Shown one piece after another: positions 9,523 through 58,677 of a stretch of DNA of 64,000 bases. Positions within the stretch are counted from its first letter, which is position 1, and every line of letters begins with the position of its first letter. The notes below the pieces were generated by a model. That model did not search any database and had not been told where the DNA came from. It was given only the letters and a program-made list of their open reading frames with translations. Source of the DNA: Coptis chinensis (taxonomy: Eukaryota; Streptophyta; Magnoliopsida; Ranunculales; Ranunculaceae). A program made the translations under genes and the position numbers. Location: NCBI GenBank assembly GCA_015680905.1, contig CM027381.1, forward strand, positions 91,227,501-91,291,500, written 5' to 3'.

Positions 9523-10635
9523 CTATACAGCAACTAGGCTCTCTGAGTAGTCTGTTGCTTGACAGCAATAAGATCCTAGGTATTTGTGTCCATCACGTGT
9601 AGGAGCAAACTGCCGTCTCTTCAAAGTTTGGGTTTTCAGTTCAAAGAAATACAGATTGCTTTTGTTGCTCAGTACCAGAGTTGCACCTTTGTTCAAAAAG
9701 CACAATGGCAATAAAAAGGTTGATGTTCGAAACTCAATTCCAATAGATAGACGTCCTATGATAAATAGCTTGGTCCATGACTCTCTTGCACCATACTCTT
9801 TCATCACCCACAGTTCAAAAGATGCTTCACCAGAAGATACTAGACAAAGATTACCATCTAATATTGCGACTCTTAAGCGACATGAACTATCAAATGTATT
9901 GTCAGGATATGCCAATTCACGGAAACTTTCACCCCCAACATCATAAGCAATTATGGCTGAGTTCAAAGATAAACCATTCTTCCGTGATCTCTGTGCTACC
10001 CAGTGAACTGCGCCATTAGTAAATGCTCCTTCCCATCGGAAAGGAATACCGTAAGGGAAGTCTTGGATCCTTCGCCATGAGTTTCTTTTAACAGAGTAAA
10101 CTCCGACTTCAAAACAATTCGATAAGCTCCCAATATTTACAACTTCATAATCTTGGAGAGTTGCATTGTAACCAAAACCATAGATATTCATCACTGGTTT
10201 CTCCTCAAATAGTGCAGTTGGTAACATCTTATGTTTCTGAGTAGCAGGATTCCATAAGCAGTTGTTTTCGGATGAGGTGATGAGTACAAGTCCATTACAA
10301 GATCCCCAAAACGAGATTCCAGACATTCCAGAAACCCAAGTCTTCAGTGGATTGTCAATCACTCTCGAATTAAGTGTTTCGAAATCTAAGGAGTATATGC
10401 TATTAAGTGGATCAAGAAATATAGCGCTTTTATTAAGACAATTTCTCTCCATTGATTGATTATTAAAGTGCCTATCCACGAAAGCAGGATCGTCAAGTAA
10501 CGCATACCATGCTTTTGATACGCACCTGAATCGCATAAGAGACTTGACCGGAAATAGTGAGAGTATCAACTCAATGATCTCCCGTGGGAGATCATTGTTT
10601 GCTCTCTTCTTCTCCTTCTCCTTCTCCATTCTCAT
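9523..10635 (-). CDS. F-box protein with F-box-associated (FBA) domain
   Basis: This is an intact 370-residue frame without an intron. Residues 14-60 form an F-box (NDLPREIIELILSLFPVKSL, then RFRCVSKAWYALLDD), which in this family binds SKP1 in SCF ubiquitin ligases. From about residue 100 an FBA type 1 domain follows: WGSCNGLVLI, LWNPATQKHK, YGFGYNATLQDYEVV, FPYGIPFRWEG, GAVHWVAQ, AYDVGGESFRELAYPD, FELWVMKEYGARESW. Length and order match CPR1/CPR30-like plant F-box proteins; the substrate is unknown. The N-terminus is Lys/Glu-rich, and a second Met two codons later could also serve as the start. Two damaged paralogues lie on the same strand at 37740-40062 and 41950-43124, showing a local F-box family in which only this copy is open. 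Confidence 0.93.
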   Translation of the reverse strand: MRMEKEKEKKRANNDLPREIIELILSLFPVKSLMRFRCVSKAWYALLDDPAFVDRHFNNQSMERNCLNKSAIFLDPLNSIYSLDFETLNSRVIDNPLKTWVSGMSGISFWGSCNGLVLITSSENNCLWNPATQKHKMLPTALFEEKPVMNIYGFGYNATLQDYEVVNIGSLSNCFEVGVYSVKRNSWRRIQDFPYGIPFRWEGAFTNGAVHWVAQRSRKNGLSLNSAIIAYDVGGESFRELAYPDNTFDSSCRLRVAILDGNLCLVSSGEASFELWVMKEYGARESWTKLFIIGRLSIGIEFRTSTFLLPLCFLNKGATLVLSNKSNLYFFELKTQTLKRRQFAPTRDGHKYLGSYCCQATDYSESLVAV

Positions 10636-11224
10636 CTTCTTTTTTTGGTTTGGAAGTGTGGCTGTTTGGTTTCTTATTGAGATTAAAACTCCGTATTGGT
10701 GAGAAATTTAAATTTAGAAAAAACTACTGAAGGAACACAATTCTAAAGCCGTTAAATTAAGTTAAACTTACCATTTACAAGCTCGATATTTCCGGAACGT
10801 ACTGGAAGAAGAGTTAAGGCCCGAAAACAAAAAAAGTTTCAATGAAGCAAAACCTTCTAAGGTTTTTGCCACCATTGACGAACTTGTCTGTTTTTTTTTC
10901 AAAATGACAACTGGCTTACGTACCGACCCAAATACCCAATATACACGACCCTATAAGCCTGTAGAAAGTCCAAAATAGCCCAAACATTGAAAGCCCAAAT
11001 AGCCAAACTACGACCCTAAAAAGCCCATAAAATTCTTTATAATTGCAACTTTGCAATTATATAAGGTGATTCCATAGGGCATTCATCAAATTGGATTGGG
11101 CAACCCCTCAAAAAAAAAAGAAATTTTACAAATTTGCCATATTACAAGTTTGCCATCAAAGCCCAAGCCCAGCAACCAATTCAACCGGTATCGCCAAAAC
11201 GAACCCTAAGATTCGGTTACATTT
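10636..11224. other. F-box upstream region and approach to the MULE
   Basis: The presumed promoter of the F-box gene lies just above 10635, though no convincing TATA box was picked out. The rest is AT-rich spacer with a poly-A run near 11110. No gene was recognised. Confidence 0.5.
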
Positions 11225-12015
11225 TACACTCAAACGATTTGGCCAAGTCGTTTGAGTGTAAACAGAAACGACTTGTCCAAGTCGTTTGAGTGTTAGTTTG
11301 AGTTTGAGTTACACTCAAACTACATGGCCAAGTCGTTTGAGTGTATACTCAAACGATATGGAAGTCGAAGTCGTTTGAGTGTTACTCACACTAACACTCA
11401 AACTGGCGGCCATGTCGTTTGAGTGTGCACTCAAAACATGACCAACGTTTGAGTGACCATGGCGTCGTGGTTTGAGTGTTACTACTCTAACACTCAAACT
11501 ACGCGGCCATGTCGTTTGAGTGTACACTCAAACTACGCGGTCATGTAGTTTGAGTGTACAATCAAACTACGCGGCCATGTCGTTTGAGTGTATACTCAAA
11601 CTACATGGACACGTCGTTTGAGTGTTACTCACACTAACACTCAAACTACGCGGCCATGTCGTTTGAGTGTACACTCAAACTACACGGCTATGTCGTTTGA
11701 GTGTATACTCAAACTACATGACCGCGTAGTTTGATTGTACACTCAAACGACATGGCCGCGTAGTTTGAGTGTTAGTGTGAGTAACACTCAAACGACGAGT
11801 TCATGTAGTTTGAGTGTACGCTCAAACGACATGGCCGCTTAGTTTGAGTGTACACTCAAACGACATGGCCGCGTAGTTTGTGTGTTAGTGTGAGTAACAC
11901 TCAAACGACTTGTCCATGTAGTTTTTGAGTATACACTCAAACGACTTGGATATGTAATTTGAGTATACACTCAAACGACTTGGTCGCGTGTTTGAGTGGA
12001 CACTCAAACGGCGTG
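11225..12015. repeat. Palindromic hairpin-unit array 1
   Basis: About twenty units of the type ACTCAAACGACATGGCCGCG followed by TAGTTTGAGTGT, each able to fold on itself (ACTCAAACGAC / GTCGTTTGAGT). Orientation flips near 11704: GAGTGTTACTCACACTAACA at about 11619 is mirrored by its complement at about 11790, so the array is also a large imperfect palindrome. Stem variants CGAC...GTCG and CTAC...GTAG both occur. Open frames through it are products of the repeat. Confidence 0.9.
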
Positions 12016-12179
12016 AACACGACTCAAAGCGATTCCAAACGACTCAAAGCGATTTCAATTGAATTAGAAAAATTGAAATCCGATTTAAAAAATTGGGTTA
12101 GAAACAACACAATTACATCAATAAAATTACATGCACTCTTTATCTGTTATGACATAGTATCTTTATAACCAAGTTAAAA

Positions 12180-12835
12180 CATGTAATCAAACATGCTAAA
12201 ATCTAAAATAATAATTTGTTTCATATCTAAACTTATTATTATTATTATTTTTTCAATTGTGAATCATAAACTAGTTTGGGGTTTGGGGTTTGGAGTTCAG
12301 GGTTTAGAAATTTCGTACTAACATATTTCACTTAATCATTTGAAATAATAATTTGTTTTATATCTAAACTTGTTATTTTTAATTTTATTTTTAAAATTGT
12401 GAATCATAAACTAGGTTGGGGTTTAGGGTTTAGGGTTTAGAGTTGTTTACAAATTTTGTACTAACATATTTTACTTAATTATTCAAAATAATAATTTGTT
12501 TTATTTATAAACTTATTATTTATTATTTTCTTTTTCAAATTTTGAATCATAAACTAGTTTGGGGGTTTGGGGTTTGGGTTTAGGGTTTAGGGTTTACAAA
12601 TTTCGTACCGACATAAAAAAAAATTTAATTTCAAACATATTTCACTAAATTATCTAAATCTAAAATAATATTTTGTTTTATATCTAAACTTGTTATTTTC
12701 CATTTTTTTTATTCAATTGTAAATAATAAACTAGTTTGGGGGGTTTACAAATATATTTCACTCAATTATTCGAAATATATCAAAATTTCAAATATATATA
12801 GAATACTCATTCACTCAGTTTAGAGTTTAGGGTTT
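12180..12835. repeat. Degenerate repeats with telomere-like GGTTTAGGG blocks
   Basis: Units of about 140-180 bp recur. Each carries AAACTAGTTTGGGG followed by runs of GGTTTGGGG or GGTTTAGGG, then TTTCGTACTAACATATTTCA. The G-rich blocks start near 12277, 12416, 12558 and 12736. The short telomere-like runs sit between spaced AT-rich segments, so this is an interstitial repeat rather than a telomere. Confidence 0.8.
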
Positions 12836-12843
12836 ACATAGAA

Positions 12844-12897
12844 TACTCAAGTTTCTCTACATACTCAAGTTTCTCCACATACTCAAGTTTCTCTAAA
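12844..12897. repeat. 18-bp x 3 repeat before the transposase exon
   Basis: TACTCAAGTTTCTC(T/C)ACA is repeated three times directly before the first Met codon of the transposase gene, probably within its leader. Confidence 0.8.
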
Positions 12898-13490
12898 TGA
12901 AACATGAAGATGAAGAAGAAGTATTTGAGGTAATGTTTGAGGTACAACAACAAATTAGAGAAGAACAACAAATTAGAGAAGGAGAAAATAGAAGATATGT
13001 TGAAAGTGAAGAAGTGAAACAAAATGTTGAAGGTCAAGGTGAAGAATTTGAAGATGCGACAAGTCGAGCAAATGAAATTCCGAGAAATCGTCGACGACAA
13101 AGTGCAAACCTAAATAATGAGGTAACACTTGATTAAAATGAATACAAAACACTTGATTGATTGAATGAATGAATGAATGGATGCAAAATGAATGAATGCA
13201 AAACCCGAGCCCAAACGACATGGCTGGGTCGTTTGGGAACACTATCAAACGACATGGGCATGTAGTTTGAGAACACTACAGAACGACATGGCGGTGTAGT
13301 TTGAGAACACTATAGAACGACATGGCCGGGTCGTTTTATTACACTATAGGACTACATGGCTGGGTCGTTTGGTAAAACTATAGAACGACTTCTCCAGGTC
13401 GTTTGGGGACACTGTAGAACTACATGGCTGGGTCGTTTGAACTCTCGATGAAACTACATGGCTGGGTCGTTTGGACTAAATTTAATTAAA

Positions 13491-13527
<37 letters not shown>

Positions 13528-15884
13528 TGACTTTGAAACTAAATACAAATTGTTTGAGACTCTTGTTTTATTCTTCTATATGTAGAATTCTTTGCCGCTA
13601 TCCGGGAACCGATTCTCTGCAAACTCGAATGATGTGGATTGTCAACCGATTTTAAGTGATACAACATAAATTTTTACTACGGAAGAGGTATGATTGAGTA
13701 GGCATTGATTTCATTTTTTTTTAAAATTTTCTAAATATAATTTTATTAGTAGTGTATTAATAATAGTTGTTGTTTTTTATGTGTTTAGGTTTTTCATACA
13801 CGTAGCGAGGCAATCGATTGGGCAACCGCTAGAGGAAGACAAGTTAATGTTGTTGTGGTCATTGAAAAGTCGGAGTGTGCCAAAGGAAACTGAGTAGCAA
13901 GATTGAATTTGGCTTGCGAGTGCTTCGGGTGTGTATTGGTCACACAAGAAGAAGGCGAAGAGAGGGCTAATAAGAGAAGGTCGGGAACCAAGAAATCGGG
14001 ATGTCCATTTAAGTTAAAAGGTGTTTTCAAACGGCAATTGTCGATAGTTGGAAAATTATGGATTCTTAATGGTGTTCACAACCATCCATTGGCGAAGACC
14101 CTTGAAGGACATGCATTTGCTACTTTCGACTAACCGTTCGAGTTCGAGTATTTGTCGAGATGAGTAAGTGTGGAATAAAACCTAAACAAATATTGGATTC
14201 CATCAAGAATAGGCATCATGATAACATCTCTAGTATATCCCAAGTCTCTACTTGCAAGGCGAAGGTGAGGAAATGGATATGAGCGGTCTCACACAATTCG
14301 CGAGATTGCGTGAGTTGTTAGCAAAAGAACATTATTTTGAGGAGTTGAGGCGGGATGAGAATACCGAGGAGATAGCGGGATTGTTATGGGCCCATCCGAG
14401 GAAGGTGTTAAGTTGGCTCGGACTTTTCCAACAGTTTTTTTTCATGTTAGGCGCTACCTACAAAACTAACGGTATCGGTGGCTTTTCGTGCAGTTTGTTG
14501 GGGTGACTTCAAGCGTGGAAATCTTTCACCGTGTGTCAGTCTTTGCCGATCCGAAACAACGATCGACTATGAGTGGGCCCTGCATCATTTTAGTGGCTTG
14601 TTTGGTGACATAAGCCCATCCGTGATCGTGTATCCGCGGGGACTTAGCCACGATGAGTGCGGCGCCGCCGAGTTTTCCCTAACGCACACAAGCATCTATG
14701 TAGATGGCATATCGCTTACGTCGTCCTTTCAAAATGTTACGATATTTTTCCAACTACTGAGAACTTGTAGAAGGCCGGTTCTCGTGGAACACCGTAGTCA
14801 AATCGAAAACGAGTTTATTTTCGGCGTAGATGGGATGCTTTGGAAAAATATTACGGGGTTGAGTACTCAATTTTGTTTGTTATTTGCGAGAGACTTGGTT
14901 TCCTCGCGGGGGGATCGATTCGTATGTTGTTGGGACCAACACATTCACTTTGGGGAGTACAACGACCAATAGAGTTGAAGGGTCTCATGCTTTCGGTGAA
15001 GCGTGTACTAGGAAATGCAAACTGTCATGATTTTTGAGTATGTTTAGCTTAATCCACCCGATTCTAGAGATCCGGATGTCGAGATTAGAGCTACGCCCGA
15101 GAAGTATGATTGTAACTTCGGCACCACCACCACGGATTCCTTTGTTTCGTGAACTTCGAGAGGCCTTGTCTCACGCAAGTGTTTAGACTTGTTTTTTGAA
15201 GAAATAGATACCAGCGTAAAGCGTGTTAAAGATGGAGAGATAAGGTGTTGGTGCTATTTGGCATACGAGCCATGGACTGCCATGTGCTCATGAATTAATT
15301 GAGTTTGAAGAGCAAGAGCGGTCCATCCCTTTGACTGCTATCGACCCCTTTTGGAAAATATTGTCTACTTCTCCCAATGTGTCAGTGGGTGTTGGTCCCG
15401 ATGTTGCACCTTCGATGGACTTGTTCATGAATAGGTTTGCAATGGTTTCTGAAGAAGAGCAGAGGGTTATGATTAGGAAGCTTATGGAGATTGCCATACC
15501 AGAAAGTACATGGCTAGTACCGCCTTGTGAGGAAGCAAAAACCAAAGGTCGGCCGAAAGGTAGCTGCAGTAGAAAGCTTCAAATTGGAGATGATAACTCT
15601 TCAAAGCGAGATCCATCTCATTTTGAACATTCTCAACGTGACCATGAAGAGTGGGTCGTCACAACCAAACACTTCCCCCCAAAACACCCACACTACACCA
15701 AGAAAGAAGTCTTCTCCAAAACTACCAACCCAAAACATCCACACCACACCAACAAATAAGCCTTCTCCAAAAACACCAAAACAACCACACCAAGAAATAA
15801 ACCTTCTCCCAAAACACCAAAAAACAACCACACCACGAAATAAGCCTTCTCCAAAAAACAATCCACACCTTTAAATGTGAGAGA
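12897..15884 (+). pseudogene. FAR1/MURA-type MULE transposase, degenerate
   Basis: Exon 1 (12897-13121) encodes a Glu-rich, probably coiled-coil N-terminus and ends at a GT donor. A likely exon 2 spans about 13587-13688, with ...FTTEE. Exon 3 from about 13789 gives VFHTRSEAIDWATARG, LACECFG, GTKKSGCPFKLKG and NGVHNHPLAKTLEGHAFA, the Cys/His WRKY-GCM1 zinc domain of FAR1-type transposases. The catalytic-core region follows in shifted frames: EIAGLLWAHP, ATYKTN, VGVTS, DYEWALHHFSGLFGD, RGLSHDECG. The C-terminus has PLTAIDPFWKILSTSP, TKGRPKGS and KRDPSHFE. Damage includes in-frame TGA at 13891-13893, TAA after EGHAFATFD, and several frameshifts. Repeat array 2 and a ~32-bp poly-T tract lie in the first intron. 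Transposition function must be lost. Confidence 0.85.
13205..13475. repeat. Hairpin-unit array 2, in a transposase intron
   Basis: Direct repeats of about 40-45 bp: AACGACATGGCTGGGTCGTTT followed by GRNAACACTATAG-like linkers, roughly seven units. The AACGAC/GTCGTT pair keeps the stem seen in array 1, but the outer ACTCA arms are lost. Confidence 0.85.
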
Positions 15885-16492
15885 TGGCTTAGACTTTGGA
15901 AAGACGAGGGGTCTAAGGATTACGGGTTGGATATTCTGAAGAAATGCATAAATACATTGTTAGAGTCCATGACCACGTTGGCGATGGCGACTACGGTTTA
16001 TAGAGCTTTCTGCATTGCATTAGGAAGAAGTCAAGAAGAATGGCCACGGATGAGAAGGGAGTTATGCGAAGAGCTTATCGACAACCTCCCCTTTATTGTA
16101 CTTTGTACAATCAAAGTGAGGTTTTATATTCGATGAAGGAAATCCTACATGAAGAAGGTTCGCACCCTTAAATAAGTGGATGAGCATGCCTTTTCTTTGG
16201 ATACTTATTTGCTTCAAGATTTAATGTTGTCCTTATGCATTTAGGAGCTCGTCGGTGCTTCCTTCTCATGCCGTGAGAACCCAAGCAAATCTGAGAGAGT
16301 GACCCAAGTGTTGGGTAAGCACATGTTGGTGGAAATCATTTTGTTAATGTTGAACTTGTTGAAGATTGTCCGGTTCCTCCAGTAATGCGCCAATGGCTTA
16401 GAGCTCGATATGATATTGCTGAAAGTTGGAATTTGGCCTTGACAGTAAGGCAATTGCAATTTATGGCATTGAACATTCCCAATTTAATATGA
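15885..16492 (+). pseudogene. OTU-like cysteine protease domain at the transposase C-terminus, degenerate
   Basis: After the Pro/Lys/Thr-rich tail of the transposase, the translation shows GDGDYG (15980-15997), then in the next frame YRAFCIALGRSQEEWPRMRR, then WMSMPFLW, and near the end ENHFVNVELVED, CPVPPVMRQW and ALTVRQLQF with a stop at 16490. This order (GDGNCG ... W..R..L ... NHFV) is that of OTU domains fused to plant MULE transposases; OTU enzymes cleave ubiquitin links. The catalytic Cys position is Tyr (TAC at 15992-15994), while the His of NHFV remains. There is at least one frameshift just after GDGDYG and a stop further on, so this is a relic. Confidence 0.72.
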
Positions 16493-16554
16493 AAAAAGGA
16501 GCTCATTGAAGACCCAACAGTACATGTTATCGACTAAGTTGTTTGTATGTTATC

Positions 16555-17010
16555 GATATGATATTTTGATGTAATTTGGAACAAGTGTAATTTGATTTGA
16601 TTTTTATGTTATCAATGTTAGGGCTTTTATTTGATTTGATTTGGAAATCGAGTAATCGACTAAGTTGATTCGGATGGCAATCGAGTGATTTTGAAATCGA
16701 GCAATCGACTAAGTGATATATTGATGTAATTTGATATTTTGATGTAATTTAGAACAAATGTAATTTGATTTGATTTTTTTGTTATTTGGAAATAATGTTA
16801 GGGCTTTTATTTGATTTGATTTGGAAATTGAGTGATCGATTAAGTTGATTCGGACGGCAATCGAGTGATTTGGAAATAGAGCGATCGACTAAGTTGATTC
16901 GGACGTCAATCGAGTGATTTTGAAATCGAATGATCGACTAAGTTGATTCGGATAGCAATCGAGTGATCGACTAGTTGATTCGGACCGCAATCGAGTGATT
17001 TGAAATAATG
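16555..17010. repeat. ATCGAGTGATCGACTAAG-type tandem repeats
   Basis: Two long units share TGTAATTTGATTTGATTTTT and GTTAGGGCTTTTATTTGATT. They are followed by short repeats of GACTAAGTTGATTCGGA and GGCAATCGAGTGATTTGGAA. They form the spacer after the OTU stop codon. Confidence 0.85.
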
Positions 17011-17027
17011 TTCGTATGTTGTCAATA

Positions 17028-17295
17028 ATGACCGAAACTACACGGTCAAGTCGTTTGGCTTTAATACGAAACGACCCAGCCAGATCGTTTGGCCTTTAGA
17101 CGAAACGATGTGGTCATGTCGTTTGGCCTTTAGACCAAATGATGTGTCCATGTCGTTTGGCCTTTAGACCAAACGATGTGGGTGGGTCGTTTGAGATTAA
17201 AAGAGAACGATCTGCCGTGGTCGTTTGGTATAAAGGAAAAACGATCTGCTGAGGTCGTTTGGCTTTTATGCCAAACGATGCGGCTGGGTCGTTTG
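17028..17295. repeat. Hairpin-unit array 3, between the convergent genes
   Basis: Six to seven units resemble AAACGATGTGGTCATGTCGTTT joined by GGCCTTTAGACC linkers. Several linkers are themselves palindromic (GGCCTTTAGACCAAA). The array shares the AAACGA...TCGTTT stem with arrays 1 and 2. Confidence 0.85.
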
Positions 17296-17329
17296 GAAAA
17301 ACAAATTTTCAAAATTCGTTTTGTTTTTA

Positions 17330-17690
17330 CAACACTTTCATATTCATCAAATTCCACTTTTCCATTCAAACATCAAATATCAAACACTCTCATTCATCAA
17401 ATTCCACTTTTCCATTCAAACATCAGATATCAAACACTTTCATTCATCAAATTCATCCATACATAAAATTCCATTCAAACATTAAACCTAAACCAAAAAC
17501 AAATTACATTCAAACATTAAACCCTAAACCTTAAACATTAAATTCCATTCAAACATTCATGCAAACATCATATCCATCAATTCATTCGAAGTTAACAAAA
17601 TTACAAACTCTAAACTGAAACAAATTACATCCATCAAACTAAATTACAAAGTTACAAACCCTAAACTGAAACAAATCAACTATAAGCCCA
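17330..17690. repeat. TTCCATTCAAACAT repeats
   Basis: CATCAAATTCCACTTTTCCA and TTCAAACATCA units recur, giving way to ACAAATTACATTCAAACATT and AAACCCTAAAC motifs. This probably corresponds to the 3' untranslated or spacer region of the PMD gene on the minus strand. Confidence 0.7.
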
Positions 17691-20384
17691 CCAATGTACT
17701 TGCACCTAGTCAAGTTATGCGCTGTTCGAAGGAGGACCTTGCTTCCTCACGGCATATCATTCCCACCAATTGCAGACTTCTCTCTAGCAAGCGACTGGTT
17801 TCATCGATGGCGTGGACGTCATTGAAAAAAGAAAAATCAAGATAAGTTACCAATCGAATGCAAAAATCCGCAGTTAGAAAACTTAATTAAAAATCACAAT
17901 ACTTACAATCGGTGAGCGGTTAGGCGGTGTCTCTAGGGAGGGATGAATAGGAAGAAGCTCGGGATTCACCAAAACTACATGAGAATTCCTCGCATACCAA
18001 GTCATGTAGTTTTGATGACACTCCCATGGATAAGGCGAAATAGGTCCTCGGTTGCGAGAGTTGGATCGCGTGATTACGCCATGATTCGAAGTAAAAGTGG
18101 CCCAATATTGGTCCGGCTCACCTCATACCGCGTGGCGTCGAAAACGACCGGTTTCATCGATGGCGCCGCTTACGAAAAAGAAAAATCAAGATAAGTTACC
18201 AATTGAATGCAAAAATCCGCGTTAGAGAAAACTCAATTAAAAATCACAATACTTACAATCGATGAGCGGTTAGGTGGTGTCTCAGGGGAGGGATGAATAG
18301 GAAGAAGCTCGGGGTTCACCAAAACTACATGAGAATTCCTCGCATACCAAGTCATGTAGTTTTGATGACACTCCCATGGATAAGGCGAAATAGGTCCTCG
18401 GTTGCAGAGTTGGATCGCGTGATTCTGCCACGACTCGATAAAAGTGGCCCAATATTGGTCGGCTCACCTCATACCCGTCCCCGCCACGGTTCTTGTTCTC
18501 AATTTGGCATTGGAGGATCTTTAGGTACAAGTTGCACGTGACCCAACCGACGCGACTAATGCGGCAGCAGTAAAGCTCGACAATGTTGAAAAAAACATAG
18601 CAATCCCTCAAAAATGCAATGTCATCGATCGGGTTTGTATCTACGATATTTTTGTAGGGATGCCAAACAACTGAAACAAAATCAAATGTGTCATTAACAA
18701 CTCTAATGATCAATTACTAAAAATAAATATAAACAAAATTAAATACCAAATTGTCATTGAATTTAATACTTACATTGAACTCATTCAAATCATCAATTAT
18801 CGCATTTCGATAAAACTGCAATGCATCGTTATTGTGTCGTAATAGTGTGGAGCGATTTGGGATGTGTCTATGAGCACGCCTTGTGGTGAGGCGAGATATA
18901 GTTGAAGTTTGGGGACTGTCATGAATACCGGAAAATACTCATAGATCCATGCCTAGATATACACAAATAGTTAACATATTGATAGAGTAATAAAATTAAC
19001 ATTAAAAAAATAAACTCTAAAATACTCAAGTTTTACGTAGAAGAGTCATATAGCTGTAACCCCTTTCACCTTCGCACATGTGGCGGCCCGAGACCTCTAT
19101 ATAAAAGCGCCAAAATTGCTGCACCCCATGCATACTCTTCTATCTCTTTGAATTTCAACAACGGCCTCGGATAACATATAGGCACTCCGGTCCCGGACTT
19201 GTCGATAAAAGCGGCACATCCAAAGAAAAGCGAATAAAAGCTCTAACGGTCCGTTGAACATCCCGGAAACTTCGAGGCCTTATCTACCACATTCCAAAGC
19301 GGCGTCACATATAGGGCTATCATGAACCTTGTTAGCAAAATGCTTCGGATGAATTCTAGCCTTACTTTTGAAGTGAACTTGCTAGCTTCCATCTCCGCCC
19401 TAATCAAATCGATAGGGAGCCCCAGACCAAGATGTAAGAGATTTATCGATTCTTGTAAGTTGAAGCTTTGTCCCCTTGCACCGCTCTTCCTCTAGCTGTG
19501 ACTCCACAGATTTGGACAACATCGTCCAAAGTCACAGTCATCTCCCCAACTGGCATATGGAAGGTGTTGGTCTCCGGATGCCATCTCTCCACAAACGCAG
19601 AGAGATCAATGGTGGATCCATATGCTCGTGATAACCTTCCACGAGATCAAAACAAATGATCCTTCTTCTCAACCGCGGCAAATCTCGAAGACCTTTCACA
19701 TTCATTTTGAAATTCCATTGGGATAACTTCGCTAAGTGTGAAACACACTTCAGCGCTCAGCGATCCTCACGAAACAACCGAAGCACGCATTAGATATATA
19801 TGAAGCGAAACAAAAGATTTTGTAAAAGAAAATCAAAGTACACAAGAAAAACAAAATATTACCCTTCTCTCCAAAAACATCGAAGCGACATGCACGCGTG
19901 ATAGTCATACAACAACTCGACTCATACGGGCCTCCCCATACACACCTCTTTGAAACTCCAAATCATCATTGGATTTTCTTACGAAATCCAATACCGGAGG
20001 TGCTTCTTCCACTGGTGGTACGTCTTCTACCACATATTCTTCAACATCATCATCCTGCTCATCCTCCTCCTCACTCTCCTCCTCACTCTCCTCACTCTCC
20101 TCTTCTACTATATTCTTCCCTTTGTCTAAACCTACATCTAAACCTACATTAGTATCACTATCTACACTATCTACACTATCTTCACTAAACGAATCAACCT
20201 CAGGACCCTCAGGAACCTCTTTTTCCAAATGGTCCCCTCTACGCGCTGATGCCATTAAGCCGTCTGCCCTATGTCTTTTTCTTCCAACTGCATCACCGCT
20301 AGAGGAACCGCCACCAAACAATTTCTTAACACCCTTGAATGTAGTTTTCGCTACATTCTTCACATTCTTTGATCGAGGACCCAT
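17690..20384 (-). pseudogene. Plant mobile domain (PMD, MAIN-like) gene, degenerate
   Basis: On the minus strand a Met at 20384 starts MGPRSKNVKNVAKTTFKGVK, followed by a long acidic Ser/Glu/Asp segment and PVLDFVRKSNDDLEFQRG; this frame is open to 19905. The PMD signature follows in separate frames: SAFVERWHPETNTFHMPVGE and MTVTLDDVVQICGVTARG (about 19630-19480), PLLKFKEIEEYAWGAAILAL (about 19160-19080), then VVWHPYKN and WYARNSHVVLVNPELLPIHP (about 18680-18280). PMD proteins (MAIN, MAIL1) act in transposon silencing in Arabidopsis, and many PMD genes are carried by plant MULEs and Ty3 elements. Frame changes and stops show it is broken. The C-terminal part is duplicated (17790-18115 and 18142-18470). 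Confidence 0.78.
17790..18470. repeat. 350-bp tandem duplication of the PMD 3' part
   Basis: Two copies offset by 350 bp share GGTTTCATCGATGGCG, AATCAAGATAAGTTACCAAT, GAGCGGTTAGG and AGTCATGTAGTTTTGATGAC. They include coding sequence for WYARNSHVVLVNP, so the gene's C-terminal exon and its preceding intron were duplicated. Confidence 0.88.
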
Positions 20385-20400
20385 CGCTACAAAGAAAAAT

Positions 20401-21229
20401 AAAATAAGTATTAGTAAACCATATTTAAATAAACAATGTACAAAGAAAACCACTAGAAGAAAGAGATCATCCCAGTCGTAAAACTAATATACTTATAAGC
20501 TTGCTATGATAACTCCAAGTATATATGAAGAAATAGAATGAAGTTACACTATCCAAATTCTATCGATTTTTTGGGCAAAGTTTCCTTTGTTTAGTCAACA
20601 TTTAGTATACTTAAACTGTCATAACACGGAAATCAATAATGACATCCTTCCAACAACCATATGTACATATAACACCCTATAAAATATTCAACCCACAATA
20701 CAATTCTGTCCCTCGTCAAGCATAGGGGAAACCACCCAAAAACCACCTTGATTGTACATTCAGTAAATTTGATAGCCAAAGAAAAAACTTCTCACCTATA
20801 ATGCTTTACAGCGGTTTTGTTCCCCCGTATCCGGACCTAAAGCAAGTACTCGTAAAAGCTGCATGTAATCAAGGTCATTACTCATTAGTCAAGACTCAAG
20901 AACATAAGCAATATAAAAGGTGAGTAATGAATGTCTGAGACACTAATCATAAAATGGTAAAAGTATCTTCTCTTATAACATCAAGCCCTAAAGGAAAATA
21001 CTAGGTATGAAAGATGAGCACTATGAAAGTTTAGCAACAAGATGTAAAGCAACTCATTTTTCAATTTTCAAGCGGGGCTCTAAATCACATGTTTGGGGGT
21101 ATCACCATGCTACCCCCCTCTAAGGGGTAGCATCGCTAGTATTTCTCTAAAAGCGTATTATTACTAAAATGGAGAACTTTATAGAATGTAAAATAATCTC
21201 TAACAAAAGTAGCTTCAAGTCTTGACTTT
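20401..21229. other. Intergenic DNA, possible isolated exon
   Basis: No gene is supported. On the minus strand at about 20815-20880 a short stretch reads DYMQLLRVLALGPDTGEQNR before a GT, which looks exon-like but is not identified. A small perfect hairpin is listed separately. Confidence 0.4.
21107..21133. repeat. Perfect 10-bp-stem hairpin
   Basis: ATGCTACCCC (21107-21116) and GGGGTAGCAT (21124-21133) enclose a 7-base loop. Short of flanking evidence it may be a MITE end or a chance palindrome. Confidence 0.7.
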
Positions 21230-23268
21230 ATGCAAATTAAATGCGAGTCCAAGTCATATTGCAGCTTATCTTTGCAATATGACTCCTCGTGTCATTTACT
21301 CGATCATACTATAGACCAACTTAATAGCATCCTAGATAGTAAAACAACAACCCCAAGTCCAGATGATACCCAAACATGGCTAAGCACTGCGATCACCCAT
21401 CAAACTACATGTTTAGATGGTCTTCAAACTCACAAGTTTTTTAAAGAAAAAGAACTTATTCACGCTACTTTACAAAGCAATATTCAACATGTTAGTAACT
21501 CACTAGTCATACACAAATCAATAGTTTCAGTGAAGGCGTTGAAAGTCGATCTTGCAGGCGGAGACTCTTGTCGGATGATTTTCCGACTTGGGTATCAACC
21601 AGGAGAGCGAAAGCTTCTAGAATCTTCTATTAAGGAGATTGAGGTCAATCTTTGTGTAGTTGCTATGGATGGAACAGGTACACATAGGACCATTAGTGAA
21701 GCACTTGCATTTGCTTCTTTTTTGGTAGGGCGGTGGCGAGAACAATAATTCACGTAGCTGGCTTTGGGACTTATAATGAAAACAATATTATGGTTTTACG
21801 CCAAGCGAGTAACGTAATGTTGGTTGGAGATGGAAAGGGCATAACAATTATTACAGGTTCTAAAAGTCTTTGGTGGTGGTTCCACTACCGCCCGATCTGC
21901 ATCTTTTGGTAAGGAACTAGTACATAAAACTTTATCTAGCTCTTGAAAACTCTAAAGCAAATTTCATGGTGATATAACTTTAGGCTATTCTTTATTGACA
22001 TCACATAATTTTATGTGACAAGTTAATATTTTGAAGACTAGCTAATCCTATCTTATCAATGAAAGAATCTATCTAAGACATCGAATTAGCTGGTCTTAAC
22101 TTATTCAATGGTATTTTTTAAACAAACCACACATCCATGTCAGTGACATCTGTTTAAAATAACCATTGAATAAGTTAAAGTTAAAGGTATGAATGTACAT
22201 CCGTACATAAATATATCTTTAATTACCAAAAAAAAATAAACATATAGTATATGTGAACGTTTCATTATAGGCATCCCATTCGATCTATAAGTAACATCAA
22301 GACCGAACCAGATCATCTAACGTTTGACTTTCTTACATAAGGTCGTACAGGTCATACAAACACATGCTTGTATAATACGCAATAATTCTTTTATTTTTAT
22401 TTGTAAATTTTTTTCTTTCAATCTCTTCTGCAATGGCATGCTCGGAGCTCAAAAGGAGATGTTGTTTGCCCAATACCTACACCAAACTTTCTCTTAAACG
22501 GACGGTCCATCGGAAACTTATATAGTGTATTTGATTATTAGCTTATATAGTGTCGTTCGTTAAACAAATTAATAAGACTGTAAACTAAAAGGTTTTGAGA
22601 CTACACTGTGTAAGCTTATGAAGATATTATATAAGTTTTCGACGAACATGTCCATTTAAGAGAAAGCTTGATACCTACACTATAATATAAACACATATTA
22701 CAATATAAAGATTCTCAAATACTAGAACTACTATATTTTTTTTTATGTCAGCTGACTAAGGAATGAGCAGCATTTTTGTTGCCCATCCCACATGACATGA
22801 TATGAATGGGCTTATAACTAATAAACACCAAAATTCAACAGTATCCAATTATAATATGGATTCATAGGCGGACAGTGGATTGAACTCACAAGTTAGATAA
22901 AGTACCATATCATAAAGGAGAAAAGCGGGCTGTTAAAACCGGTCGCTCTTCTATATGATCAAATATACATGTTTACTGTATTTGTTTTTACAATATTGTT
23001 TTGGTTTAGTATTAATTTTCCACATTGTTAACTAGCTTATTGTGTATATGTTCTACTTAGGTCTTTGGCGGTGATGGCTTTATTGCTCGAGACATATCCT
23101 TTGTCAATCTTGCCGGTCCATCTAAGGGTCAGCGATCGCTCTTGTAGTCACTTCGCAGATAAATCTGTGTTTTATCGATGTTCCATTATTGGTTACCAAG
23201 ACACTTTGTACACCCTCTCGAATCGACAATTTTACAGAGAGACTGATATCTATGGAACTAAAACCTAG
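21230..23268 (+). pseudogene. Pectinesterase with inhibitor (PMEI) pro-region, pseudogene
   Basis: The first part (21230-21748) encodes a PMEI-like helical segment: SSCHLLDHTIDQLNSILDS, DDTQTWLSTAITHQTTCLDG. It is followed by the mature-enzyme start VVAMDGTGTHRTISEAL. In a shifted frame IIHVAGFGTYNENN and NVMLVGDGKGITIITGSKS continue to about 21890. After a likely intron the second exon (about 23062-23268) reads [20 protein letters not shown], then in another frame [20 protein letters not shown] and [14 protein letters not shown]. The GYQDTL motif is the classic plant pectinesterase active-site region; the family de-esterifies cell-wall pectin. Frameshifts, a TAG at the QAV position and loss of the C-terminal third show it is dead. 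No secretion signal is preserved at the start. Confidence 0.88.
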
Positions 23269-24190
23269 TACACTTTAGTTCACACAATCGACACTTAGTA
23301 CACTTTGTACCCTTAAAAAAAAATATTTTGTTGTTCACTTTCAATGCATTGATTCTCTTTTTCAGTTTCTCTCGAAGAAAATATATAGGAAATTCGAGCT
23401 CATTTTCTCATACTATATAAAGATGAACAAGACAAACATCACATTCCCATAACTCATCAAATTAAAATTAAGAAGAACTAACCTGAATTAATTAAAACAT
23501 CACATTCCCATAAGGAGAGACTTGCTGGTCGGGGTGTTCGACGATCGTGGTTTCTGTAGGCGAGCAGCTGGAGCCAAAAAACGTGAGCTCCCCTTTCCGC
23601 TTCTTTCTTCTTTCTGCAGCCACTCAAAGTAAAGCAAGCACCCTTTCTACAAACCTTTCGGGTTCAATTTTGCTATTGTTTATGGAACTGAACTGTTTCA
23701 ATTGGATTGTTTATGGATTGTTTCAATTGGATCGTCGAAGGTTCAATTGGATTGTTTCAATTTCGCGATTGGATTGCTTCAATTCGGATTTTGGATTTTT
23801 TTGGTTAGGTTTCGCGATAATTGGTCGAAGGGTTTTGGCGAGAGAGATGACCGAAGGAATAGGTTTTTCCGGTTTGCGATTTTTGGTGGGGTGTCTTTGG
23901 GATTTCTTGTTTGGACTTTGTTGTTTGGGCTGGGCTGGAGGCTGCCCGATCTAATTTCAGTGGCGCCCAATACAGCACCCTTATATAATTGGTGACCAAC
24001 TGACCATCCTTTTACATGCGTCATACGTGGTAGGGGTTTCATCATCTTGAGTCAATGCGGACATGCCCCATGTTTTAACTTGTAAGGTCAGGTTGCCGAA
24101 AATGAAAAATGTGCAAGTTTGCCACTTCGCATTAGCGACGATTGGGCCTGTTTCCAGCGTAACATTTAAAATGGGTTACTCACTTACTTG
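23269..24190. other. Non-coding region with TTCAATTGGATTG repeats
   Basis: A TATA-like ACTATATAAAG occurs at 23413. ACATCACATTCCCATA occurs twice (about 23437 and 23499). From 23697 to 23790 the motif TTCAATTGGATTG(T/C)TT recurs imperfectly, resembling a plant leader sequence. No protein is recognised in the open frames here. Confidence 0.45.
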
Positions 24191-37690: not shown

Positions 37691-38528
37691 AGTTGGTGAA
37701 GCGAACATGCATAAACATAAATAGAGCCTATCGCCCCTGTGTGACTCTCACTCTACAGCAACTAGGCTCTCAGTGTAGTTTGTTGCTTCGCAACAATATT
37801 TTTTAAATTTGGACCGATCAACATGCCCATAATGTGAAGGAGCCAGCGGCCATCCCATCAAAGATTGGCTTTTCGGTTCAAAGTGAAATAGAAACTGAAA
37901 GTCGTGCACTGCGAGAGTTTCACCTTTGTTTATAAATTAAGCACAACGGTTCCAAGAAGCATGATAGTCCCAACTCAAGGTCATAAGTTTCATGTCTTAT
38001 GATTAACTGCTTAATCCATGACTCTCTTGCACCATACTCTTTCATCATCCACAATTCAAAAGACGCTTCATCATACGAGACTACACATAGATTCCCATCT
38101 AATGTTGCGACACTTAGGTCACATGAATTGCAAATCAGATGGTCATCAGGATAGGGCACTTCACGGAAACTTTCACCCCCAACATCATAAGCAATTATGA
38201 CCAACTCCACAGATAGTTTGCCATTCTTCACTGATCTATGTGCCTTCCAATGAAGCGCACCACTATTAAATGCTCCTACCTTTCCCGTAGGAACACCGTA
38301 AGGGAAGTCTTGTATCCTACACCATGAGTTTCTTCTCAGTGAGTAGACTGTGACTTCGTAACCACGATTGGAACAATAATGCGATACCCTCCTAACCTTT
38401 ACAACTTCATAATCCTTGCCAGTTGCATTATAACCAAAACCATGTACGTTACGATTCGGTCTATCACCACATAATGTAGATGGTAAGATCCTGTGTTTCC
38501 GAGTAGAAGGATTCCATAAGCACATGAC

Positions 38529-39582
38529 CTCGCTGATGTTTATGCAGATGAGTCTAACATTTCAGCAACTAAATCATCCTCACTGATGGTTGAGAAGGCT
38601 GCAGAAAGCACCGAAGTTGAGGGGGTTGAAGTGATTAATGTTGCAGACAACCTGGTTGTAGAGAATGAGCAATTTGTTCAAGCTTCAGCAGGAAAATCTC
38701 TGTGTCAAGACGGAAGTGAAAACTTTGCTGGTGCACTGGAAGATGTAGAATATGGAACTGATAATGAGGGTAAATAGTGGCTCTGAACCAGAATACTCGG
38801 ATGCCCTCAATGCACCAGTTGAAACTCTAGTCCCTACGCAGCAATGAGGCAACTGCTAACTTGGCTGAAAATCTTGTTACTACATATAAAGATTTGTTAG
38901 ATGATGTTGACAAGGGGGGATATGAGATGAATCAGATATTAGTGGCTCCTAACCCACCCCACCGATATAGATAAAGGCACTGCAGTTGGGAGCCCGAATA
39001 GTTGAGTAGACTCCTATTCTTCTTCATCTACAAGATATGCAGATCAATCTTCTTCCATTACTGGAGATGGAAACAGACTCAAATTATTGAATGAGGTAAA
39101 TTCACTGCTAAGATCGGTTAATTGGGCTGACCTCACAGATGATGAAAATGCCAAAGATGGTAAAGAAGTAGTAAATAACCATGGCAGAAGATAGCAATGA
39201 AAAAGTATAAGCTTGCATGGATGTAGTAGGAGCATGTTGATGACGAGGATAACTCACAGGATGGTGATGAACCATGGCAGATTCAAAAGAAAAAAGGAAG
39301 CAAGGAACCATGGCAGATTCAAAAGAAGAAAGGAAGCAAGACAAAGGGGAAAGATGTGGATTTGACTCCTCTACCACCCAGGGCTAGAAAAATTCCAGCA
39401 AGATATAAATGAATTACTTTTACGGGAAATACACATGGTTTAGACATTAGACTAAAGGCTTTATGACCTTCATGGAATTTATTTTTTGGTTTCAAAGTGG
39501 GAACTTAATGGGTGGTGCTTAACTCCTAAATTGTAACTTTATTATTATATATAATATATTCACATTTTGTCTGCAAAAAAAA
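38529..39582 (+). mobile_element. Polyadenylated retrocopy inserted in F-box 2
   Basis: An 11-bp duplication, AAGCACATGAC, flanks the insert (38518-38528 and about 39582-39592), and the insert ends in a poly-A run (about 39574-39582). These are marks of LINE-type target-primed insertion. The plus strand carries coding-like sequence: VEKAAESTEVEGVEVINVAD to EDVEYGTDNEGK (open 38586-38777). In other frames a Lys-rich end follows: GSKTKGKDVDLTPLPPRARK, then IPARYK and a TGA (about 39411). Next comes an AT-rich, 3'UTR-like stretch of ~160 bp. A ~42-bp tandem repeat (ACCATGGCAGATTCAAAAGA) lies at 39268-39330. The parent protein is not recognised; it may be a processed pseudogene of an acidic host protein. 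Confidence 0.78.
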
Positions 39583-41949: not shown

Positions 41950-43124
41950 ACTCTCACTCTATATCAACTAGGCTCTCTATGTAAGTTGTGGTTTCGTAGC
42001 AATAAGTTGTAGACTTGGACCAATCATTTGCCACATTCTGAGAAGGAGTGAATGGTTATCTCCTCAAAGTTTGGCTTTTCAGTTCAAAGAATAATAGATT
42101 GCATCCATTGTCCAGTACAAGAGTTTCACCATCGTCTATAAAGCATAATGGTGCTAAGAAACATGATATTCGCACCTCAAGCTCATGAGCATGGCGCCCT
42201 ATGATGAACTGCTTGGTCCATGAATCTCTCGCACCATACTCTTTCATCACCCACAATTCAAAAGTGGATTCATCGAGCGAGACTACACATAGATTCCCAT
42301 CTATGTTGCGACTCTTAAGCCACATGGACTGCGAATCAGATGGTCAGGATATGGCACTTCACGAAAACTTTCACCCCCAGCATCATAAGCAATTATGACT
42401 GACTCAAAAGATTGTAGTAAGCCATTCTTCCGTGATCTATGTGCCTTCCAATGAAGAGCGCCATTAATAATTACTCCTCCCCTACCGGTACGAATAGCAT
42501 AAGGGAAGACTTGGATCCTTTGCCATGAGTTTCTTCTTAGGGAGTAGAATGTGACTTCTGATTCACGTTTCAGAAACAAGCTAATCTCTACAACTTCATA
42601 ATCCTTGACATATGCATTACTACAAAAACCATATACGCTGCGACTTGGTTTGCCATGAAAAGATTTGGATGGTATGATATTGCGTTTCCGAGTAGAAGGA
42701 TTCCATAAGCAGATGAAGTTGTTATCCTTATACATACAAGTCCGTTGCAAGATCCCCACAAATTAATTCCATTAAACTTAGTTTTGAGTGGATCGTCATA
42801 AATAACTCTTGATTGATATGTTTTGAAATCTACTAAGTTTAAGCTTTTATGTGGATAAAGAAATACAGCTTTCTTATTATTATTATTAAGATGGTTTGAT
42901 AAATTCGTAAAGTGACTATCAATAAAAACAGGATCGTCAATTAATGAACGCCATGATTTCGATACGCACCTGAATCGTAGAACAGACTTGACCAGTAACC
43001 TTGTTAGTATCGACTCAATGATCGACCATTGTTTGCCACTCTCATCTTTTTCTTCCCCATCCCCATCTCTTTTTTGTTTGCCCCGCTTATCTTTCTGAAA
43101 CGCCCTAATATAAGAGTTGAACAA
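41950..43124 (-). pseudogene. F-box/FBA paralogue 3, frameshifted
   Basis: Three minus-strand frames make up the gene in order. First, 43124-42720 has SIIESILTRLLVKSVLRFRC, VSKSWRSLIDDPVFIDSHF and INLWGSCNGLVCI. Then 42720-42301 has ICLWNPSTRKRNIIPS, VYGFCSNAYVKDYEVVEI, FYSLRRNSWQRIQVFPYA, GALHWKAHRSRKNG and AYDAGGESFREVPYPDHL. Then 42318-42056 has GNLCVVSLDESTFELWVMKE, YGARDSWTKQFIIGRH and FFELKSQTLRR, followed by a stop; homology to the intact copy goes on to about 41950. Two frameshifts and an early stop make it a pseudogene. It is closer in wording to F-box 2 (KAHRS, EVPYPD) than to the 9523 gene. Confidence 0.92.
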
Positions 43125-45227
43125 AGTTTTGATTTTTATTGTTGAACAAAGTTTTGATTTTTATTGGAAAATTGAAGGGCAATGTTTTATATGACAATTG
43201 TATTTTTTGTCTCAAATCCCAACCCGTATCATATGTGATATGGAACACGCACACCCATAAAAGAAAGATTTCCACACTTAGAACATCCATCATCAACCAT
43301 GTAGAGCTAATTGGCTTTTAAAAGCACGTCCATATAGTAATCGATCTACTTTGAAATGGTTTTTTTTCAAAGACCATTAATACTGAGTAGTTGAGAATGC
43401 TACCAGTGAACCTACGTAAGTCTCTTTTTTTACTCTTAGACTGACACATCAGATTTTATATAAAAAAAGGAATTCTATGCCCTTTTTTGCCGATTTCAAT
43501 TGTTTCGTAACCCAAAATAGATAAAAACCTCTTTCTATATTTTTTTTTTCAATTCTACAAAGCATTCCCAACTCTCCAAAAAAAATTCATCTCTTCGAAC
43601 CCTCTCTCTTATTCTTCTTTTCTTCCAAAATTAAACGAGATCAAAACGTATCATCTTTCTCTCAATTCATTTTCTTGTACTTCTTCTCCTCATCTCAAAT
43701 CCAAGTTGCTTTGTTGGTAGAAAAAAGAAGACAAGATCGATGAATCCTCCAATTGGGTAACTCCTCTTTACTTTTTTCTTCTTCTTCTTTTTCTATAACC
43801 CCTTTTCATCAATTTGACGAGTTTTGATATCGTTACCTGGGTAAGTAGTATAGGTCACCGCTTAGGGAGACAAAAACAACTTCCTATCATCTATAGAAGA
43901 CGAGAGTTTCAAACTATAACCCGTCCGTTAGTGTTCGTTGCCTTCCATCCAATGACATAGCACTGCCTTGCTTGATAGCCTCAAACAATTTTTATATGTA
44001 ATAATTTTTGTTTTTGGGTTTTTTTATCATTTCACAAACAAAACCATGATATGGATTCTTTTCTATTTTGATTATCGTTGAATATTTTGTTTCGTGTGTA
44101 TTTTATAATAACTATTCTTTATCCTGGTGGTGCACGCAAGGCTCTTCATCATAAGGTGCTAAGCTCTTCTATTTTAGTTTTGAGTTTAATTCTTCTTCTT
44201 TTCAAAGTAATTTATTTATTTTTAGTTTTCTTTTAAAATGCTCTCCACCTATTAACTAGATGATGATATCGATTGCTGAGATGATACCATGGACAAAATA
44301 ACCTGTAAGTCTTTTTACTTTATTATCCGATAATTTTTGGTTGGCCTGTCTGTTGCTACGTAGATTATTGGCTATTGTTCACTCATTAAAGGGTTTGAGT
44401 TGGAGGTTGCAAGGAAATATGTATATGTACTACTTCAACCAGTTATCGATCCCACTATATAGGAGGGTTGAACTTCTACTTGAAAATTTATAATAATATG
44501 TTAAATATTAATGTGGAAATCCACATACCAAACTCCTAAGTCCCTATCCCGAGAATCTAAAGTAAGTCATGGTTGCACAGTAAATCCACATCCCTGTTAC
44601 AAATTTCAATCTACTTTAAATGAAAAGTCCTTATCGATTTCTTAGTAAGTCAGAGTTAAGTATTGCAATTGACAATAACAATCTGAAGTCAGAAAGCCCT
44701 GAAAATCTCGAGCTTAGGTCCAACGTCAAACCCATTTTCTTTTTCAATATCAAGTCATTGTTCCCGTGGATGCAGACAATCGAATACGGCTCCATGTGCA
44801 GTTGATTTCATAACTGATATACAGCATATTAATATAAAAAATATGGATTTCCTCCGTCTTTGGGTTTTTATTCATAGAGTTGGAAGCGGATTGTTATGTA
44901 TTTATCTTATTCTCCATTACTGATTGATCCAATTAATGCACAAACATGTTGGTAATCATTGCTTGAAGATGTGTAATCTCTTCCATTTTTTTTTTGTCGT
45001 TTCCATTCCTCTTTTATTTAATTAGGAAGTTTTTGATTAAATGCTTATTTTATGTTTATGTCTTCTCACCAGTTTTCGATTCTGGCGTTTATCAATGTTT
45101 GGGTAACATCGATCTCCGAATTGAAGATTTTCTTCTCATTCGCTTCTTAAATCTTATTCTTTGTTATTATTATTTTTTCCAATTTTATGGCGCTATGATT
45201 TTCTATGTAATATGGATAGCAGATAAT
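43125..45227. other. Leader-like and intron-like stretch
   Basis: A CT-rich stretch at about 43560-43735 with an ATG at 43740 (ATGAATCCTCCAATTG before GGTAAC) looks like the 5' leader and first exon of a plant gene. Possible small exons follow near 44250-44305. No protein family could be read. A 36-bp near-exact duplication, GTTGAACAAAGTTTTGATTT, occurs at about 43122 and 43141. Confidence 0.4.
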
Positions 45228-58200: not shown

Positions 58201-58677
58201 GGAAAGTCTGCTGAACAAGACGTTCTCTATCCTATAGAATTTTTGAATACTCTTCAATTTTCTGGAGTGCCAAACCATAACATTGAGCTGAAAGTTGGTG
58301 TTCCCATAATGTTAATGCGGAATTTGAACCAGAGTGCAGGGCTTTGCAATGGAACTAGGTTGATTGTGACCAGATTGGGATCCAAAGTTATTGAAGCAAA
58401 AATTATAATAGGTAGTAATATAGGAGATCCAGTCTACATTCCAAGAATCATCCTGTCTCCGAGTGACACCAAGTGGCCATTTGTCTTCAAGAGAAAACAA
58501 TTTCCTATCAGAGTGTGCTATGCAATGACTATAAACAAGAGCCAAGGACAAACTTTCAACCATGTTGGTGTTTATTTACCACGGCCAATTTTCACACATG
58601 GCCAATTATATGTGGCTGTTTCAAGAACAACATCTAGACAGGGACTAAAATTTCTAATAAAAAGTGAAGACGATTAG

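Follow-up and report, generated by a model that had tools for sequence, protein, structure and literature searches.

Mutator-like elements (MULEs) that carry genes beside their transposase have been described in several groups. In VANDAL elements, tandem motif arrays in non-coding DNA are bound by a protein of the transposon, VANC (PMC5735166, PMC10398659). Already known from PMC6446971 are antisense PMD (plant mobile domain) genes in MULEs (MUDR, MUDRAVI2 and MULE-Solanaceae_1, for which FAR1 is not listed and duplications are of 9-10 bp or not stated), a PMD, a DUF or both in half of the VANDAL group (Table 1; 9-bp duplications), and FAR1 MULEs with 8-bp duplications (Jittery group 36, a dicot/monocot subgroup with an N-terminal FAR1). 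Here, a MULE of the plant Coptis chinensis is described from a window of 64,000 nucleotides, the whole stretch analysed (C5:91227501-91291500; contig CM027381.1 of assembly GCA_015680905.1, 935.6 Mb in 116 contigs). Its family numbers at least a few hundred copies in this genome. We are highly confident that in this family the transposase with its OTU-like end travels as a unit with a convergent PMD gene and three array sites in non-coding DNA.

The family resembles VANDAL elements in being a MULE with an accessory gene beside the transposase and with non-coding arrays of short motifs that differ between related families. However, VANDAL elements have VANC genes and 9-bp duplications, whereas the present elements have 8-bp duplications (3/3), a PMD, an OTU-like end and dyad-symmetric 22-bp sites at a 34-bp period. 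The antisense PMD gene is shared with MUDR, MUDRAVI2 and MULE-Solanaceae_1, in whose available description (PMC6446971) arrays and OTU are unnamed. Jittery group 36, compared by description only, has no PMD or OTU listed in the same source, and the one OTU entry in its Table 1 is MuDR-6_HM of Cnidaria. The mosquito Muta elements are likewise MULEs, with duplications of 8-9 bp, and their non-autonomous members retain subterminal tandem repeats, but those repeats are of 9-15 bp and lie inside the inverted ends, and PMD, OTU and internal arrays are undescribed in the available part of PMC5225508. Kaonashi (KIU) is also a MULE with a peptidase-like domain of the ubiquitin/SUMO world (PMC13317346); there it is Ulp1, whereas here it is an OTU-like motif at the transposase C-terminus, with no Ulp1 match among the pieces scanned. 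Like Pack-MULEs, the family carries host gene fragments (PMC6431247, PMC13317346), but it has a transposase of its own as well. That PMD captured by MULEs serves anti-silencing was called a tempting speculation by Ikeda et al. 2017 (PMC5418596), who named no target. The joined FAR1-like/OTU/PMD/array design, or palindromic arrays in a MULE, was undescribed in the open-access literature searched.

The main features of the window copy, a MULE DNA transposon of 12,916 bp, are the following (positions in the window).

11057..11064, no strand: left target-site duplication TTATATAA, an exact 8-bp match to 23981-23988
11065..23980, plus strand: whole MULE, with left end GGTGATTCCATAGGGC and right end GCGCCCAATACAGCACCC; the inverted ends are short and imperfect
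11225..12015, no strand: array 1, left subterminal, with cores at 11232-11960; 22-bp cores in 34-bp units, linker GAGTGTACACTC
12897..16490, plus strand: FAR1-like/MULE transposase gene with an OTU-like C-terminus; frames broken in the window copy, Pfam matches in copies c8b and c5b
13213..13474, no strand: array 2, in the predicted intron 1 of the transposase, with cores at 13213-13472
15860..16490, plus strand: OTU-like region, whose Cys motif reads GDY in this copy
17035..17300, no strand: array 3, between the 3' ends of the convergent genes, with cores at 17035-17294
18260..20383, minus strand: PMD gene, convergent to the transposase, with an acidic N-terminus at 19905-20383; PF10536 found in copies c8b and c4a
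23981..23988, no strand: right target-site duplication TTATATAA, 8 bp, identical to the left one

These limits come from comparison between copies. A genome search with window positions 11225-20400 as the query gave 2647 first-look candidates, the best 17 of which were scored, the window included; the window copy and 10 fetched copies with flanks form the 11 compared stretches. All 11 share the sharp left end GGTGATTCCAT[T/A]GGGC, beyond which the flanks are unrelated. The right end was located in three (the window, c9 and c5a) and not in the other eight; end-like sites in c8a and c4c were rejected as right ends, as shared DNA continues past them and no duplication fits. All three copies with both ends show an exact 8-bp duplication, namely TTATATAA in the window, TTTGTTAA in c9 and the low-complexity TAAAAAAA in c5a. 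Membership of the MULE superfamily is borne out by a DDE transposase domain and by duplications in the 8-11 bp range at inverted ends; the end-to-end inverted match of the window element is weak. An earlier model-made account of the window, the sequence-only reading, had expected 9-bp duplications, which the 8-bp ones contradict, and had placed the element at 11225..20400, a range that does lie inside it but starts 160 bp after the left end and leaves out the right third.

The PMD gene lies inside this duplication-bounded element, and parts of the transposase and PMD halves were adjacent and in the same order in 17/17 scored loci. Because that ranking favours complete copies, the linkage was also assessed with 36-base probes cut from the transposase and from the PMD gene, allowing up to three mismatches and using reversed probes as the control. 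The transposase probe matched at 191+177 places and the PMD probe at 123+109, against 0 for the reversed controls. Pairing used the 94 exact transposase-probe places among the matches listed, six beyond the last listed PMD match being excluded. An exact PMD probe stood 3.6-5.4 kb downstream in the same orientation at 53 of them, which is a lower bound as inexact partners lie outside the list, and in the opposite orientation within 10 kb at none of the 94 among the matches listed. The proposal of the sequence-only reading that one element joins transposase, OTU-like end, PMD and arrays is thereby upheld, linkage being seen in all 17 scored loci and, at a minimum, in 53 of the 94 exact-probe loci; transposase and PMD in separate elements, the outcome that it had named as contrary, were not seen in the genome search and alignment of copies.

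The three array sites occupy the same non-coding places in 11/11 copies, and a scan of the compared stretches (up to four mismatches, one strand) placed 337 cores inside the array sites and 0 elsewhere, so that the three arrays with one core reported earlier hold throughout. The core (AAACGACATGGCCATGTCGTTT in the window's family, hereafter family A) is a dyad-symmetric 22 bp, AAAC[G/T]A[C/T]-8-[A/G]T[A/C]GTTT, with half-sites that are mostly AAAC[G/T]A[C/T]. A 34-bp period predominates in all three arrays, and array 1 also has one of 45 bp. Between arrays, the core shares 18-19 of 22 letters and the 12-bp array-specific linker only 3-6 of 12. Array 1 is split into two clusters in some copies, and its length and unit number vary. 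Arrays 2 and 3 start about 2.1 and 5.9 kb inside the element, and no core was found at the three family A right ends or near the right end of an element of the second family described next.

Genome-wide, the core pattern matched 3428 times on the forward and 3477 times on the reverse strand, where the reversed control matched 0 and 1 times. Nineteen places (13 without mismatch, 6 with one mismatch) were fetched, hand-picked from the listing and thus non-random: eight were family A arrays, six lay beside transposase/OTU DNA 73-78% identical to that of the element described here, four were short elements, and the last, L034, was assigned solely through DNA shared with L030. Arrays in unlinked locations would have told against the joined element; the core lay inside elements of this clade in 18/19 of these places, the 19th being placed only indirectly. 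The second family, family B, has a transposase 74% identical to the window copy and the same gene order and 34-bp period. One element on C2 was read whole; it is 10.4 kb long, is flanked by the duplication CAAAAGTA, and contains a MULE domain and an OTU-like motif; its PMD gene is convergent, and arrays lie in intron 1 and in the stretch separating the two genes. Its half-sites AAACGAC and AAACGGT are mixed; the family B core is AAACGGTGTGGCCACACCGTTT, and B-type sites numbered 2656 versus 0 in the control. L051 and L052, family B members near PMD hits, are collinear and 85-95% identical in long matches, and transposase/PMD order and orientation are the same in three family B elements. Among 67 listed core places (neighbours mostly merged), six lay within 12 kb of the 117 scored PMD places, versus a mean of 0.2 and a maximum of 3 in 2000 random draws; for three PMD rows on C7, the length used in these draws was too short. 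A family B end probe matched at 187+174 places against 0 in the control, and 12 facing pairs spanning 606-948 bp were counted by eye among the matches listed. Four short family B members of 705-1069 bp are without genes and keep the ends and 4-12 recognisable cores; their duplications are exact (8/8) in L029 and L043, 7/8 in L045 and absent in L044.

The coding parts were characterised by profile matches in those copies whose frames allow it. In the window, the transposase exons lie by eye at about 12897-13122, 13587-13690 and 13789-16490. The Pfam MULE domain PF10551 was matched in copy c5b (E=4.4e-10) and in family B (3.8e-23), and below the cut-off in c8b (2.2e-5). The N-terminal zinc finger of the transposase, which the sequence-only reading called FAR1-type, scores above the cut-off as AFT PF08731 (1.1e-6 and 1.5e-5 in two scans), FAR1 PF03101 being second and below its cut-off (0.0016, 0.0052); the first family B element gave AFT at 0.031, below the cut-off. 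The finger is termed FAR1-like here. The PMD gene on the opposite strand was read correctly, PF10536 being matched in two family A copies (3.1e-14 and 8.9e-17) and in family B L052 (7.1e-42), with 1.9e-6, below the cut-off, in the first family B element. PMD is very abundant in this genome (3775 first-look candidates, best 117 scored), and unrelated families may carry it.

OTU peptidases have an Asp-Gly-Asn-Cys motif and a catalytic His. GDGNC is present in copy c9 and in family B copies L049 and L052; both it and a downstream His (H141) are the same in c9 as in one family B copy. The window copy, which reads GDY, lacks the Cys, and L051 has Ser in its place. The best Pfam match was Peptidase_C65 (otubain) at E=0.056 and 0.27, both below the cut-off, the latter in a family B scan beside CDC45 (0.34). 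A PDB search with the family B piece and a two-row profile returned only two OTUB2 entries and 5jze (E 0.59-1.1; 0.87 for the OTUB2 match of the family B piece); 5jze is listed as an RNA polymerase, and we take it to be a viral OTU. PDB searches with the c9 OTU-like part and with a 532-aa frame of L052 gave no matches, and a Pfam scan of that frame gave no OTU family match. The OTU-like C-terminus claimed earlier is thus retained as a putative, motif-level assignment from GDGNC, the His and weak profile matches, all below cut-off. The transposase-OTU fusion itself is real in L052, because the single 532-aa frame spans the transposase end through the OTU motif. Between families, the OTU-like part is 72% identical over 157 residues, and 67-72% over the family B frames compared. 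A PMD identity of only about 33-37% was rejected as a product of broken frames; with better family B frames, identity is 58-60% in one piece and 46-49% in a second, partly broken piece. In 100-base windows, DNA identity is 66-92% for the transposase and 50-81% for PMD; one short transposase intron is identical at 68/84 positions and two PMD introns at 42/76 and 49/68.

Relative to the majority, frameshifting indels number 19-50 per copy in the transposase region and 22-47 per copy in that of PMD; indels are commoner in GC-rich coding DNA than in non-coding DNA. Genuine decay of all frames was the first explanation, but the context of the short deletions suggests that a good share of the breaks are sequencing errors. 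Short deletions fall at the middle base of CAG in 9.3% and of CTG in 7.1% per site and copy, against 0.2% for GAC and 0.1% for GTC, and the rate is also raised at GCG, CGG, CCG and TCC. CG-/CHG-type sites make up 13.8% of bases, yet account for 118/274 and 92/230 deleted base-copies in the transposase and PMD regions. To our knowledge, no mutation process has such a deletion context bias. The 1-2 bp deletions at CAG/CTG/CG-type sites probably arose where methylated bases were miscalled, so the copies may be methylated. The bias leaves the insertions and over half of the deletions unexplained. Modification-caused nanopore errors are described in PMC10687267. Since the bias fits base-calling errors, broken frames are unsafe evidence of element death. 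Moreover, gene calls that depend on frames may be unreliable for the transposons of this assembly, and the bias could serve as a crude methylation map of its repeats.

What might the arrays do? Our tentative reading is that they are candidate sites for a protein encoded by the element, serving anti-silencing or expression control. The PMD protein, or the transposase zinc finger, would bind the double-stranded sites in cis, at the promoter side, in intron 1 and between the genes, and would thereby keep the element in, or return it to, an expressed and unsilenced state, as VANC does on VANDAL motif arrays. Non-autonomous members would retain ends and arrays, both of which may aid mobilisation in trans. 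A cis-acting protein site appears likely because the core is conserved, the period and the non-coding places are fixed, the site letters drift between families, and gene-less elements retain the arrays. A more specific version, which we regard as rather unlikely, holds that MULE PMD proteins are sequence-specific anti-silencing factors, each family having its own dyad-site arrays, with protein and site letters drifting together. Several observations weigh against our main reading. Non-autonomous mosquito MULEs retain subterminal tandem repeats, so that retention does not require anti-silencing. DUF1985 (VANC-type) had no match among the pieces scanned, a weak negative as these covered part of the element in broken frames. 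The faster change of PMD than of the transposase between families, in itself a point in favour, is moderate, at 58-60% and 46-49% against 67-72% for the OTU-like part. Finally, a crude proxy for methylation relief at the arrays, observed versus expected deletions at error-prone contexts, was mixed (6/8.8 in array 1, 11/7.4 in array 2 and 0/8.4 in array 3).

As the main alternative, the arrays could be sites of the FAR1-like zinc-finger transposase that aid transposition only, with PMD acting elsewhere. This is somewhat unlikely, though a FAR1/AFT-like finger is present, array 1 is subterminal, short elements that need transposase in trans keep cores, and the Muta elements of mosquitoes, whose duplications are of 8-9 bp, offer a parallel in the subterminal tandem repeats of their non-autonomous members (PMC5225508). 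The depth of arrays 2 and 3 and the lack of any core at the three family A right ends found speak against it and against a pure end-recognition role. Tandem repeats expand easily, and the variable length and unit number of array 1 would suit functionless satellites, selfish or made by slippage, that are merely carried along with the family; such an origin is nevertheless improbable, given that the core is kept while linkers diverge, that one 34-bp period recurs in three arrays and two families, and that cores are retained in elements without any genes.

That the units act as hairpins, in single-stranded DNA or in RNA, for instance by giving rise to small RNA or by serving as structural signals, is highly doubtful. 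The sequence-only reading had taken them for hairpin units, and the 34-bp units are indeed near-palindromes, while array 1, taken whole, forms an inverted repeat. However, pairing over the 11 arm pairs amounted to 854, 321 and 286 in arrays 1-3 versus 866.8, 328.2 and 285.3 expected from shuffles, with no excess in total. Two single pairs exceed shuffles (1/22 in array 1, z 3.0; 8/15 in array 3, z 3.3), and three fall below them (z -2.6, -3.1 and -3.2). Positions 5/18 pair in 58/69 units of array 3 but are unpaired in 83/124 units of array 1 and 39/57 of array 2, units being non-independent. Hairpin function is thus unsupported overall by arm covariation, despite the two single pairs, and because this covariation is lacking the units resemble dyad protein sites rather than hairpins; a protein dimer would fit the dyad symmetry better. 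As for the anatomy, PMD and transposase being neighbours by chance, in nested or adjacent elements, has a practically negligible probability: PMD is very common and 41/94 transposase-probe places had no nearby exact PMD probe (inexact partners lying outside the list), but one target duplication encloses both genes, and order and orientation recur at the 17 scored and 53 exact-probe loci and in three family B elements.

The window copy has three further features.

12205..12745, no strand: AT-rich tandem repeat, upstream of the transposase, that includes telomere-like tracts of GGGTTTA; a 143-bp repeat lies at 12205-12615
17789..18475, no strand: tandemly duplicated segment of about 340 bp within the PMD gene, in its 3' part (91% self match, overlapping hits in other copies)
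21197..23270, plus strand: captured pectinesterase fragment, made up of a PMEI exon, an intron and a pectinesterase exon

The segment of about 340 bp is single in the compared elements and duplicated in the window copy. The captured fragment matches PMEI PF04043 (1e-11) and pectinesterase PF01095 (5e-15, plus 0.00029 below the cut-off), and parts of it occur in 7/10 other copies with differing deletions. Copy c5a holds a receptor-kinase-like piece (C5:4133206-4133739, 1e-26), which was unmatched in the other fetched right-hand stretches. Elsewhere in the window, pieces of F-box or F-box-associated genes lie on the minus strand at 9526-10707 (an open 394-codon frame adjoining the transposon), 37923-38561 and 42591-43160. 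A likely Helitron, with a Helitron-like N-terminus below the cut-off and Pif1 helicase pieces, occupies 55330-58674 on the plus strand.

The two families offer a concrete candidate target for PMD, the 22-bp dyad site in the arrays. Their shifted site letters provide a natural comparison, and the short elements keep ends and sites without genes, so that the role of PMD in transposons becomes directly testable. If the PMD proteins of these elements were indeed anti-silencing factors, a VANC-like system would have been built on a domain that plants use for silencing (MAIN/MAIL1).

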